From Nymphaea colorata (Eukaryota; Streptophyta; Magnoliopsida; Nymphaeales; Nymphaeaceae): a DNA stretch of 64,000 nucleotides. Below are positions 22,701 through 45,200 of the stretch, piece after piece (the stretch's first letter is position 1; each line of letters starts with the position of its first letter). A program made the translations under genes and the position numbers. The notes below the pieces were generated by a model. It did not search any database, was not told where the DNA came from, and worked only from the letters and a program-made list of their open reading frames with translations. The stretch spans positions 18,392,854-18,456,853 of the forward strand of contig NC_045147.1 in NCBI RefSeq assembly GCF_008831285.2, written 5' to 3'.

Positions 22701-25700
22701 AAAAAAATATATCATGCAAAAGCCATAGTGTTATTAAAGTGGATCTAGTTTCTGTCTTTCTTTCCTTCTATTTGTTTCTGTTTCCAAGTATTCTCGTTGG
22801 TCTGGTGTTAGACCCATAGTTTTGTTTTGGCTCGAAAGTGACACACTGGATTGTACGCCAGCAGAATTGGTTTTGAAATGTAGAATGAGGATCTCTCTCT
22901 CTCTCTCTCTCAAATATAGGAAATGTGTTAAACCAATTGCCTAGTGAGATATTTTCTAGTGTGCTGGCTCTGGATCTGACATCGGTCCGCCATGCCCCGT
23001 GTGTGACATGGCACCATTATGGGTCGTGTCTCATGTAGGGGTCTCTGCCAACTTGATGACAGATCGAGACTGCGGATTTAATCCAACCGGGATATTTCCT
23101 TTTGAATTTTTTGGTTCAAAAGAACAATTATGCAAATGTTATTCAAGAACACAGAAGTGGACGTAAAAGTCGGGATTTTGAAACATGCACACGCACACAC
23201 ACAAACTCTTAACAGCGTAGCACTGCATTGAGTAAATCCAACACTTACGCATTGAGTAAACTTCATCGATTTGTAGTGATCCCATGTGAGCCTGCCGCCG
23301 TCCACGTCCTTGGCAATGGCGTCATGTTCTTCCTAGAAGACAAAAGGAGAGTAATACAGTTGGAGTTACCATGGCTGTCTGTGTGCTGAGAAGGGAGAGG
23401 AGGGCTGGGGCTCACCCTAAGCTGCTGCAGGGCAGCAGGGTTGTCGGTCAAATGTTTGACGGCAAAAACCATGACCCTTGCAGAAGTATGATGGCCGGCG
23501 TGCGCCAGGAAGAGGATGAAGTCCACGATCACCTCATCCGGCAGCCGGCTCTCTTGCCTCAGCAACCTCGACAGCAGGTCCCCTCTCATCACCTCCGTGT
23601 GCTCCTCCCTCTCCGCGATTTCCTTCTTCACCCTCGCAACCAATGCTTCCCTTGCCTGTTCCGCATTCATGAGGTCGCAGAATTAGAGAATCCAATGCTC
23701 ACTCTCTCTCGTTAGGTCTCTCCTGGTCTCCTACATATATATTAACCACTACCATTAACTCTAACAACTGATCCGGCTACTGGGTAATTATGTTTCTCTT
23801 CTTTCCACTATTAAATCTCATCTATATGGACTGGAAGAGATCTAAGGAGAGATAGCCTTGCACATGAGTTTTACTTGAGGGCTGCTGTCAACTCGAGTAC
23901 AATAATTTTAGTTTCTTAATATTTCTATAAATTTCAGCAACCAAACATGCTATTAATTTATGAACTGACAGGATAAACATGCATGACAAAGAAACAGAGC
24001 GAAAGAATAACAAGGATTACTTTTGTTTTCATGTATGGGCCACGTGATGTGAAAATTCTTGATTTGTCTGGAATGCTTTAGGGAGTTCTGATCTTGAGAA
24101 TTCATGTATCAACGCCAAACTTTTGCTGCTAGATGCCAAAGTCCCCTTAAAAGAAAGCTGGCTGCTTGTGTGCGTCGTAGTTATTTACAAATTAAAAGAC
24201 AGACGGAGTGCAAGAATTTAACTTAACGTAAAATTCATAATTGGGAGACCACTTGGTATTTCCTAGCTTCACTAATCTAGATATTCCTCCTGTCATTATA
24301 TGGAGTTCCTTTTTGGCTATTAATTTTTTAAACACTAATGAATGTCCCATTCCTGAGGCTTTAATTTGTGCGCGTAGTATATAAACAATCTAGTAATGTG
24401 GACAAAATACTATACAAACCTTTGTGTAAATATGACAATTGTTTGTACATTTACCCGCATGGGCACTATTTTTATTTCCAATAACATATATAGCTATACT
24501 CTATCGAATTTCAGAATTTTAAAGATAAGGTTAGATATTATGCTTGTGCTCTGAGTCTATCACATAAAACTCAATAGTTCCTATTCGAATTAGCTGTAAA
24601 GTCTACATGTTCGATTGGCATATAAAAGGAGGGTGTAGATTGTAGCCGGTTAGATATAATCAATATTTGGAAGGTAGCTAGAGCAAGAGTTGAATTATGG
24701 ACCCTACAATAAACCTTGTGCGTTAGGTCGTACATTTTTCTTTATCTGATGAACGGATGCGTACAATACATGTCATATCATAATGTAACTTGGATAACTA
24801 TTTAATTTAAGCATGAAAATGACAATAGTTTTTCCTTTTAGGACTAAAGTGAGCTCCACCAATTAAGCTTGACCAAGACAAAAGCATGAAAACTGTGAGA
24901 ACGACGCAAAGGAAACATTATTCATAATATTTAATTTGTCAGTACCCTTCACATTTCTGTAATCTAGCAGTCATAAAAAAAAAGTATAAACATTAATTTG
25001 CAAATAAGAATCAAATAAACGAACTCAAAGGAATCTTATAATCATATAGGAAGCTGGACCACCTATATTAATGCTCCATACAGAGAGAGACCTACCAAAC
25101 GGGAACATATTTAACAAGAACGGGTGGCCCGTTACAGATATAATTTACATGTGGGAGAGAGTAAGAGTTTGTCTTGGAAAGCGTGGTACTTCCCTTGACA
25201 AATATAATAAATGGGAGAGAGATAGTGAAATGCCTGGAGGGTACACGCACATGTGCATCGGAAAAGTAAATACAACTACAGAAAAACACCCACACACGCA
25301 CAAAGAGAGAAAGAGAGAGAGAGTAGCATTAACACAAGGGTTGAACATGGAAGAAAGGTTACATCTAAGACTCAGGAAGTTGAAGATATCAACATGCCAG
25401 CATAAGTCGCGAGAAATTAACCAGACATTCTAAAAAATAGAGAATGCTATGTGTTGAATCCAGACAACCTCATTCCTATAAATAATATCATTCTTCAAGT
25501 TCTAAATAATCCATCAAAACATAAACAATCAAATTCTCTAAATGGTATGCCATTTCTTTTTGGTTTTGACTATAATGGTCCGTAAATCAGACCACCAATA
25601 ATAGATATGTTTGTGACTCCCTCCAAATAAAGAGAGACAAACAGAGAGAGAGAAAGATGTCATCTCAACTTTACAAATAAAAACTCCCTCCAAATAAGAA

Positions 25701-42220: not shown

Positions 42221-45200
42221 TCATGCTTCTCTTGGATACACATGTATTGGAAATCCGTCTGCAAAAGTCGGGGCAGGGATTCGGATGACTTGATGCTCCG
42301 TTAGTTTCTCCCATCTGCAAATTACACAGCTAGTCAACTCTTAGTGAAGAAGAAGAAGAACGTAAGAAAAGTAAAAGACTGAAAATAATAACAACAACAT
42401 TACTTTTACTATTAGTCTGTAAGGGAAGATTTGAATATGCGTGTACAACCGTGAGTACAAGGATGAAAATTTGTTAGAAATCACAGCTTTCAATAAAAAA
42501 TTTGAGATTAGTTAAAAAAAAACAAAGAAGAAGAAGAAAGCGTCACCTGCAATTAGTCACCAAATGGTGAAGGAAGACAGAGATCTCCATCTGAGCAAAT
42601 TGTGCTCCAGGGCATAGCCTTGGCCCTCCACTAAATGGTGTAAATATCCCATCCGTCGATGATTTCTTCTATACCCAGATAGTGCCAACTTGTGATTAGT
42701 TATAATATGTATCAAACCGCTAGCTGTAGGGCTGACCTGAAAAGCGTTTACAAGTTCATTACCTGGAGATCATCTGATTGCCATCTCCACGGGTTGAAAG
42801 CCAAGGGGGATTCATAGTTGTCCTTCTCCTTGTGGACAGCATCTATTAAGAGGATGACGCAGGTGCCTTTGGGAATCACGTACCCTTCAACTGGGACATT
42901 CTCCATGGCCTCTCTGACCACCATGTTCGCTCCAACTTCAAGCCTGAGCGTCTCATTGATAACCTACAAAACTTGGCTAATCCGTCATGTATTCATTTAT
43001 TGATACATAGACTGCCGCTTCCTGCAATTTTTTTAGGAGTGTTCATCCCCATAATCAGGTAGAGTTTCATGGCAAACACGTCTACGGTGGTGAATTAAGA
43101 TTCAGATGGTACGTGGTTATAATGTGGCTAGTATACGTATATCTAATGCATGCTCACCCATCGAGTAAATTTCATGGATTTGTAGTCCTCCCAAGTAAGT
43201 CTACCGCCATTCCGGCTCTTCCCTATGGCGTCGTGTTCTTCCTGCAGAAAAAGGGAAAGTGAGTGGAACACTGTTGTCAAAATAACATATTGATCGGATC
43301 CAGATCAAGGAGAAGATTTATTACTCTTAGTTCCAGAAGAGCTTCGGGATTTTCAGTCAAGTGCTTCACAACAAAGGCCAAGGCCCTTGCAGAAGTATGG
43401 TGCCCGGCATGCACCAGAAAGAGGACGAAATCGATGACCACCTCATTTGGCAGGCGGCTCTCTTGATCGTTAAGCAACCTTGACAGAAGATCCTCTCCGA
43501 ATGCTTTTGGATCCTCTTCCCGCTTCTTGATCTCCATCTTCATCCTTTCCACCAATGCTTCCCTTGCCTGACCCATGGCCCAGAACATGGTTAGCACTTG
43601 CATGTCTGGATTTATTCACGTACCAAGATTTGGACATTCATTCATTTTGTCAAGCAGAAAGCAAGCAACCGAGCTTCAATATTTTGACATCAACCACGAC
43701 ATAATTGGAAAAAGTTTTCCCACAAATTTGAGAACTGGCTTATGACAAGGATTCGCCCATTACTTTATTCTGAGAACGAGTTGTGTACAGTAATTTATCA
43801 TGTTTCGGACGCTGCTCAGTAGGATTTCAAAATGGCTGTGCAGCTTCAAACTTTTTCCATTGGGCTGTTTCGAGTCCCATTCATTTGTCAATGAACATTT
43901 ATAAATTGAAAAAAAAAATTGTGTTTCTTGTGTCGACCTGTTTAATCTACGTGACGTTAGGGAACCTAAGTTTGCGGAAGTATGGGAGAGATTTCAAAGC
44001 TGGCAGTGAAGAAGAAGTCATCAGGTGCCCCACCTGACGTCAAACAGACAGATAAATACTAAAATTATGCATGTTGCTAAAGCATGATAAATAAAAAATA
44101 TAATTAAAAACTCATGAAAATTATTGAGATGTAGCGGTTCAATGTATTTCCTCACAAGCTAGAAAATTAATTGAAGTCAGCTTTCTAAAGAGATGGATCT
44201 TAATACCGGTTCCAAACGTTTAAAGAGCCACGTGACACGCGCACACACGCAAACAAAAGTTTTGAAATTGATTATGACACAACTGATCATGTTAACTGCC
44301 CCACTTTAGGTTATCCATAATTGTTTTTTAATACGTATACTCCTTTCCTTTTTCTTTATTTGTAATATATGTGCTGTATTACGTAACTGTTAAATACTGA
44401 ACACTATCAATCTTAATACTTATGAAAGTTTTTATGATGCAATGAGGATGCAATTTGATACATTTTTTCATTGTTATGAGAAATTCAAATAATTTTTCTA
44501 AGGTTAAACTGCTTTATAATTTAATGATAGTATGCTAAAGTATAAGCGATATATGATAAATCTAGATGATGGATTTGCCGAACTGGGTCTTATCTGGCCA
44601 TGAAACTCAACCAACCTGACTAGGCACGGCTGATATTGTGCAATGTTCAATGTATCATTCGATAAATATCTATATCCTTGACATCAATTATTAAATAGTT
44701 CATTAAGATAAAATCTCCCGTGATTCCGATCTGATCAGCATTGTGAGTTGTCATCAATTTAAAAAAAAAAAAATCAAAACTGCCAAATAATGTAAAATAA
44801 AGACTGTAAAAAACTATTCAATAAGCCTTGATTAACAAACGTACTGCAGAGAACAACTGCCGGATTATTTAATAAATGATCATTATACTATATTTTTTTT
44901 TCTTTTATGAATTCAACTTATTTAAGAATCAAGCCACCCAAAGGAGATCAGTTCAGAAAATGGTGGGTTCGAGCTGGGTTCACAGAAGCCTCAGGCTCGA
45001 TTTGAACCCCGTGTGTTACCTTGATGGCTTTGTAGAACTTGGTGCCCGGAAGCCGGATAGGTAGAACCCCGACGCCGGAGCCTGTCACGTCCCGAAATTC
45101 TCTTTCAATCTCCTTTGTGTCTTCAGATGGATCCAAACCCAGTAGATGTTTCAACATGAGCTCCAGCACCATCTGCATATGGATAGACAAGCTATATATT

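Follow-up and report, generated by a model that had tools for sequence, protein, structure and literature searches.

Our analysis of a 64,000-nucleotide stretch of the Nymphaea colorata genome (contig NC_045147.1; hereafter, the window) indicated that three P450 genes, all carrying histidine at the I-helix position where most P450s have an acid (AGHHTS), are probably working tandem copies of a diverged CYP85-clan family. By analogy with CYP51, they would use a His-Thr relay on a steroid- or triterpenoid-like substrate, a reading to which we give a probability of roughly 0.6. The genes seem to be an unusual, still functional offshoot of an enzyme type already known and not a case of new chemistry; the new part is only a CYP85-clan lineage that carries a CYP51-style histidine, along with one inserted residue in helix F.

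Gene models and the AGHHTS motif

The three genes (c1, c2, and c3) are each intact, with all exons open (Table 1). Their exons were modeled by hand with GT-AG introns, and the c2 model was recovered exactly by a purpose-written spliced aligner; because the aligner profile was built from the window proteins and CYP90B1, this agreement tests the splice choice and not the gene call. The Pfam p450 profile scored c2 at 182 bits against a cut-off of 22.8 (c1 and c3 were scanned as exon pieces), and NCBIfam returned general bacterial P450 families alone, far under their cut-offs. The first-pass annotation had placed a P450 cluster at 23482..43408, with threonine, ExxR, FNPWRW, and the haem cysteine loop intact and all exons open. 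The cluster is real, and these elements were seen in all three gene models (ExxR as ETLR; the cysteine loop as F[GS]GG[PA]RLCPG), but the interval was too narrow for genes that span 16745-46702.

Table 1. Positions of the P450 genes and their motifs in the window
Feature	Position	Strand	Details or basis
P450 copy c1	16745..27637	-	8 exons, 471 aa; hand model, GT-AG introns
c1 exons 1-8	27637-27429, 27337-27016, 26919-26767, 23655-23416, 23332-23249, 18503-18303, 18209-18097, 16838-16745	-	
P450 copy c2	31900..37165	-	8 exons, 474 aa; hand model and spliced aligner
c2 exons 1-8	37165-36954, 36689-36368, 36248-36096, 33905-33666, 33582-33499, 33017-32820, 32725-32604, 31993-31900	-	
P450 copy c3	42221..46702	-	8 exons, 475 aa; hand model, GT-AG introns
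c3 exons 1-8	46702-46494, 46407-46086, 45172-45020, 43567-43325, 43241-43158, 42963-42763, 42668-42547, 42314-42221	-	
I-helix AGHHTS, c1	23482..23499	-	acid-position His, H284; translation
I-helix AGHHTS, c2	33732..33749	-	acid-position His, H285; translation
I-helix AGHHTS, c3	43391..43408	-	acid-position His, H285; translation
FNPWRW (PERF-like), c1	18324..18341	-	translation
FNPWRW (PERF-like), c2	32838..32855	-	translation
FNPWRW (PERF-like), c3	42781..42798	-	translation
Haem Cys loop, c1	18156..18185	-	10 residues; translation
Haem Cys loop, c2	32663..32692	-	10 residues; translation
Haem Cys loop, c3	42606..42635	-	10 residues; translation
Helix-F stretch EFRDFTSSG (c1 exon 3)	26767..26919	-	invariant Asp D205 and one-residue insertion; alignment
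Same helix-F exon in c2 and c3	c2 36248-36096; c3 45172-45020	-	

Reverse-complement translation gave AGHHTS at the three sites where it had been reported, each in exon 4 and on the minus strand, which the earlier claim had left out. An alignment or splice artefact was ruled out, as the motif lies mid-exon within open frames. Among the three copies, silent differences occur at four of the six motif codons and replacements at none; together with the Asp or Glu found at the acid position in 15 of the 15 other in-genome relatives read (12 and 3, in two read-outs), this argues against a chance occurrence. The same silent differences rule out recent gene conversion as the source of the common motif. 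Exon 2 does look gene-converted in c1 and c2. No evidence was found for a metal site built from three histidines (HxxHH), and the histidine preceding the motif is also present in taxadiene 5-hydroxylase.

Family placement and origin of the histidine

By sequence, c1-c3 are members of the plant CYP85 clan, as indicated by the top PDB matches and by exons 2-5, which are close in length to those of in-genome relatives. The closest solved structure to c2 was CYP90B1 (8.4e-95; 321 bits; 168/427 residues identical), followed by taxadiene 5-alpha-hydroxylase (PDB 8x1w/8x3e), which we take to be CYP725A4 and of CYP85-clan type; the clan names of the in-genome relatives, except CYP90B, are likewise our assumption. 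An identity of c1-c3 as CYP51 genes was ruled out, with c2 scoring 67.7 bits to the best CYP51 versus 321 to CYP90B1. P450s are named to the same family at more than about 40% identity. The window copies showed at most 40.3% identity to the 13 relatives compared (40.3%, 37.3%, and 36.7% to L051, an in-genome CYP90B-like gene with the motif AGHETS; 38-39% to CYP90B1), and a clade joining them with CYP90B was rejected (p-AU, 0.00028). Literature on CYP90/CYP724, the P450 I-helix, and Nymphaea held no match to the window family among the matches listed.

The phylogenetic tree (16 rows) grouped the window copies in one clade (100/100) with a single change from acid to histidine. Since all 15 other in-genome relatives read keep Asp or Glu, the histidine was most simply gained once, on the family stem and before the tandem duplication, which bears out the earlier suggestion that it was ancestral to the three copies. 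L063 (AGHETT), which probably belongs to another clan, and a degenerate fourth copy in the genome that retains the motif histidine were excluded from the tree. In the motif scan, 3 of 10 strings (PSEFSL, PGNPSS, and SALGSP) were not P450 I-helices and went uncounted, and AGYETT and AGYETV came from genes counted already; L001 yielded no motif by regular expression, and a second string in L010 (AATDTG) was disregarded. Two CYP51-like genes in the same genome carry AGQHTS. A search of prokaryote contigs for relatives gave one locus, and the ten plasmid matches were hand-picked, not random. Pairwise dN/dS values of 0.15, 0.18, and 0.19 (NG86) show purifying selection on the three copies, in agreement with the first-pass proposal that the change had been kept by selection.

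Proton delivery and competing readings

If the parallel with CYP51 holds, the helix-I Asp/Glu-Thr pair would be replaced by His-Thr, protons would most likely reach the iron-bound oxygen via the motif histidine and water, and the reaction would follow the normal compound-I cycle. A steroid- or triterpenoid-like substrate would probably be hydroxylated or oxidized, a class taken from the relatives only. We infer activity, this substrate class, and a histidine doing the same job as in CYP51, and the best reading is that a CYP51-like relay may have evolved in parallel in the window lineage. Histidine at the acid position is the rule in CYP51, where PMC7908997 and PMC11089504 describe it as contributing to proton delivery; AGQHTS is named as a conserved CYP51 motif in PMC7444271. 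Helix-I H317 and helix-F D233 of ScCYP51 are proposed for proton uptake, with H317 kept across the fungal, human, and plant CYP51s compared by the authors (PMC7908997). The different proton relay envisaged earlier is plausible as a departure from the acid-threonine pair, but, given the CYP51 precedent, it is not new in principle. Nor is the suggestion of undescribed biochemistry supported, with histidine present at this position in a well-characterized family, including the two CYP51-like genes of this genome. No finding here suggested a reaction other than hydroxylation or a substrate that donates protons, and the threonine, ExxR, and cysteine are kept.

The window copies have the CYP51-like feature of an acid-position histidine followed by threonine. 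In the alignment with relatives, they alone carry a one-residue insertion in helix F that shifts the register; opposite the first Asp of the CYP51 DLDxG stretch they have an invariant Asp, and opposite the second, two columns later, Thr. We take the CYP51 relay Asp to be the second, from the yeast sequence set against the residue numbers of PMC7908997. From the helix-F Asp to the motif histidine there are 84 or 82 residues in plant CYP51 and 79-80 in the window copies, so that residue counts alone leave either DLDxG Asp as the relay. The case for the invariant Asp as a special compensating gain is weak, as L056 and L058, two relatives with the normal I-helix acid, have Glu in that column. With this Glu and the Thr in the relay column speaking against it, a CYP51-like Asp-His gate is no more than a candidate; the insertion may bear on such a relay, as in CYP51 the partner of the histidine lies in helix F. 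It is doubtful that the genes represent a new family-level CYP85-clan lineage combining independent CYP51-style His-gated proton delivery, a matching one-residue change in helix F, and the processive oxidation, in several steps, of a steroid-like substrate.

Neutral replacement, in which the acid is dispensable, water and threonine suffice, and histidine is merely tolerated, would make these ordinary hydroxylases with a motif of no special role. The acid is not universal, as AGTATT, SGHSTV, and DGMITT are among the motifs in an annelid CYPome table, and AGSTSL is found in a jellyfish; however, a tolerated site might drift, and histidine stands in all three intact copies and the degenerate fourth despite a dS of 0.77-1.05 between the window copies, making this explanation unlikely. 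We regard as quite improbable a changed reaction, such as a CYP51-like oxidation over several steps in which a C-C bond is cleaved, a dehydration, or a rearrangement. The long stem branch of the family (0.77-0.82 changes per site), the helix-F insertion, and the loss of a Trp after the PKG-type stretch that is present in 12/12 modeled relatives speak for it, as do the several oxidation cycles on cholesterol that plant CYP90s perform in the CYP90G4 pathway (PMC6642093), but every O2-activation residue except the acid is present in the window copies. Decay, with the acid lost under relaxed selection in copies becoming pseudogenes, would suit the broken family pieces near 17.94 Mb on C10 and 0.12 Mb on C14 and, among the matches listed, further pieces near 0.21 Mb on C14, of which one contains a stop, but it is very improbable for the window copies, being contradicted by their pairwise dN/dS of 0.15-0.19, fully open frames, and GT-AG splice sites.

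Comparison with known P450s

The steroid C-22 hydroxylase CYP90B1 (DWF4; PDB 6a15-6a18) is of the same clan and aligns with the window proteins over nearly the full length at 39% identity, a 19-residue stretch being listed among the likenesses, whereas its I-helix reads AGHETS. Taxadiene 5-alpha-hydroxylase, a conifer diterpenoid enzyme, shares the histidine just before the motif (LLHASYDTT versus HAGHHTS) but has Asp at the acid position. Within the open-access literature searched, the exact AGHHTS string was found in one paper, which does not imply its absence elsewhere; AGQHTS or GGQHTS strings were present in CYP papers, and GHHTS in a BM3 paper was ruled out as a P450 motif, being a tag linker. 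The jellyfish protein with exact AGHHTS, CYP3336A1 of Aurelia aurita (PMC8110760, table 3), differs from the window copies as an animal P450 of another family, and its relative CYP3336B1 has AGHETT.

CYP51, the sterol 14-alpha-demethylase, resembles the window copies in its acid-position histidine followed by Thr-Ser (GGQHTS of PDB 5jlc aligned at AGHHTS) and acts on sterols; it differs in the last part of helix F, which reads DLDxG in CYP51 and DFTSSG or DVTGSG in the window copies. Why CYP51 has histidine where most P450s have an acid is a mechanistic question that deserves a second case, and the analysis brings to notice a diverged, duplicated steroid-type P450 family. The swap having arisen separately, in a clan whose other members read here keep the acid, offers a natural comparison with CYP51, in which one could ask what else changed and whether the swap accompanies multi-step oxidation.

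Three complete P450 genes carrying AGHHTS

Minus-strand translation of three 18-base sites gave AGHHTS at each, and each site fell in exon 4 of one complete P450 gene, bearing out the first-pass annotation, which had read this I-helix motif, with His where most P450s carry Asp or Glu (the acid position), in all three tandem copies (c1, c2 and c3, together the window copies). The range then assigned to the cluster, 23482-43408, lies inside it and spans just mid-c1 to mid-c3, with the genes extending beyond. The models, made by hand from a six-frame reading and then assembled, each encode a hydrophobic segment at the N-terminus, [19 protein letters not shown], and F[GS]GG[PA]RLCPG. 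The c2 protein came out identical from a spliced aligner whose profile had been built from the c1-c3 proteins and CYP90B1, and all 67 tblastn matches of the c1-c3 proteins overlapped modelled exons, revealing no extra P450 piece in the window. Two introns of c1 are long, at 4745 bases (18503-23249) and 3111 bases (23655-26767); the matching introns measure 481 and 2190 bases in c2, and 194 and 1452 bases in c3.

Genes and gene pieces located in the window
Feature	Positions	Strand	Remarks
P450 gene c1	27637-16745	-	8 exons, GT-AG introns, 471 aa
P450 gene c2	37165-31900	-	8 exons, GT-AG introns, 474 aa
P450 gene c3	46702-42221	-	8 exons, GT-AG introns, 475 aa
Class I chitinase (GH19) exons	3088-5172	+	adjoin P450 cluster
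Pmp3-type small membrane protein gene piece	9133-9438	-	
AUX/IAA gene piece	60443-60844	-	

The window copies share 80, 68 and 70% identity pairwise, with NG86 dN/dS values of 0.118/0.775, 0.192/1.054 and 0.177/0.955. Across c1-c3, silent differences occurred in four of the six motif codons and replacements in none, while the 33 codons around helix I included 13 that varied silently only and 11 that varied in residue. Local gene conversion is suggested in exon 2 of c1 (27337-27016) and c2 (36689-36368), not at the motif, because dS was 0.30 there versus 0.56-3.5 in the other c1-c2 exons. Within this genome, the AGHHTS of the window copies is a real and conserved motif that defines the family.

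Family placement and decayed relatives

The top solved structure for c2 was Arabidopsis CYP90B1 (8.4e-95, 321 bits), and taxadiene 5-alpha-hydroxylase ranked second at 161 bits; among CYP51 structures the highest score was 67.7 bits. In the genome searched (407.8 Mb, 783 contigs, the window lying on contig C10), a CYP90B1 probe matched at least 98 places, and 13 regions selected from that list were modelled, yielding 12 usable relatives; L063 was left out of the comparison, as it looks like another clan. L051 is near CYP90B1, to which it is 67% identical across probe residues 32-146, and we take the remainder to resemble CYP724 (L052, L053), CYP90A (L054, L055), CYP90C/D (L056, L058), CYP85A (L057, L060), CYP87 (L059), CYP88/716-type (L061) and CYP707 (L062) enzymes. 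In a tree of 16 rows with the motif columns removed, the window copies were monophyletic (support 100/100), and their stem measured 0.77 changes per site, against 0.23 to 0.83 for other pairs. Once the two longest rows were removed, the window stem was 0.82 and the window copies joined the CYP87-like row weakly (60/69); in this reduced tree a clade with CYP90B alone was rejected (p-AU 0.00028), and placements with the CYP90B/724 clade (p-AU 0.216) or the CYP85A-like (0.187), CYP90D-like (0.146) and CYP90A-like (0.0945) pairs were not. The window copies look like a family-level lineage with uncertain nearest kin, because several sister clades are unrejected and identity to any outside row is at most 40.3%.

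A degenerate fourth copy on C10 at 17.94 Mb (17936.0-17937.1 kb; L014, L019) comprises exons 4, 6 and 7 plus a portion of exon 5, which appears frame-broken; its longer pieces are 88-93% like c3 and AGHHTS is kept, and the 29.7 kb read contained nothing matching exons 1-3 or exon 8. Contig C14 holds broken c3-like pieces of exons 1-3 near 0.12 Mb (118.6-120.4 kb; L064), where the 5.9 kb read contained 5' exons alone, and, among the matches listed, further broken c3-like pieces near 0.21 Mb (208.6-209.8 kb). These broken pieces on both contigs indicate that the family has been duplicating and decaying, the window copies being intact.

The acid position across P450s

The acid position was D or E in all 12 modelled relatives and in three further ones (L067-L069), D in five additional P450s met incidentally, and His in two CYP51-like genes (L065 and L066, AGQHTS), these counts covering a subset of the genome's P450s. 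On the tree, the His state of the window copies was a single change. Among matching plasmid records (473 in one search, 433 in another), ten archaeal and bacterial P450s were hand-picked, and all ten carried D/E; L001, on prokaryote contigs, gave no readable motif. Of the 114 rows in the motif tables of two animal papers, two are blank and three show His at this position: Capitella CYP51A1 (AGQHTS) and CYP20A1 (AGFHTT), and Aurelia CYP3336A1 (AGHHTS) (PMC8110760, PMC4229089), the table of PMC4229089 covering a subset of the CYPome it describes. AGHHTS elsewhere in the literature was sought by exact-string search of open-access papers only. An extra invariant His immediately precedes the motif (HAGHHTS; H280 in c1, same place in c2 and c3); CYP90B1 has Phe at this position, whereas taxadiene 5-hydroxylase also has His.

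Helix F and the CYP51 precedent

One extra residue at the helix-F end was confined to the window copies among 18 aligned rows (EFRDFTSSG, versus EYVTFM-KG in CYP90B1 and LFHDLD-NG in CYP51, whose relay Asp sits there), and the window copies carry KGT in place of a Trp present in all 12 modelled relatives. From the residue numbers in PMC7908997 set against the yeast sequence, we take the relay Asp of yeast CYP51 to be the second Asp of DLDxG. It is the first Asp that the invariant Asp of the window copies (D205 in c1) matches in the alignment. A CYP51-like Asp-His gate is a candidate here and unproven, because Thr occupies the column of the second Asp in all three copies, L056 and L058, with a normal helix-I acid, carry Glu in the column of the invariant Asp, and residue counts are not decisive (the spacing to the His is 79-80 in the window copies, and 84 or 82, depending on the Asp taken, in the plant CYP51-like genes).

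The cluster had been proposed as undescribed biochemistry; this novelty of principle falls by the refuting condition set with the proposal, namely His at the acid position in a well-characterised family, because CYP51 is such a family. AGQHTS is listed among its conserved motifs (PMC7444271). In yeast CYP51 (helix-I stretch I304ANLLIGVLMGGQHTSAA321), helix-I H317 and helix-F D233 form a proposed proton-uptake route; conservation of H317 holds across the fungal CYP51s analysed, with the residue kept in human and plant, and the human mutant D231A H314A removes the proton-delivery salt bridge (PMC7908997). The Acanthamoeba enzyme has a conserved His297-Asp231 pair, named the proton relay salt bridge (Asp231 is printed D213 in one legend; PMC11089504). 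By analogy, a CYP51-like His-Thr function is likely in the window copies. What stays unusual, beside the helix-F insertion and KGT, is that their swap to His arose within the CYP85 clan and separately from CYP51; AGHHTS is a known solution in a new place.
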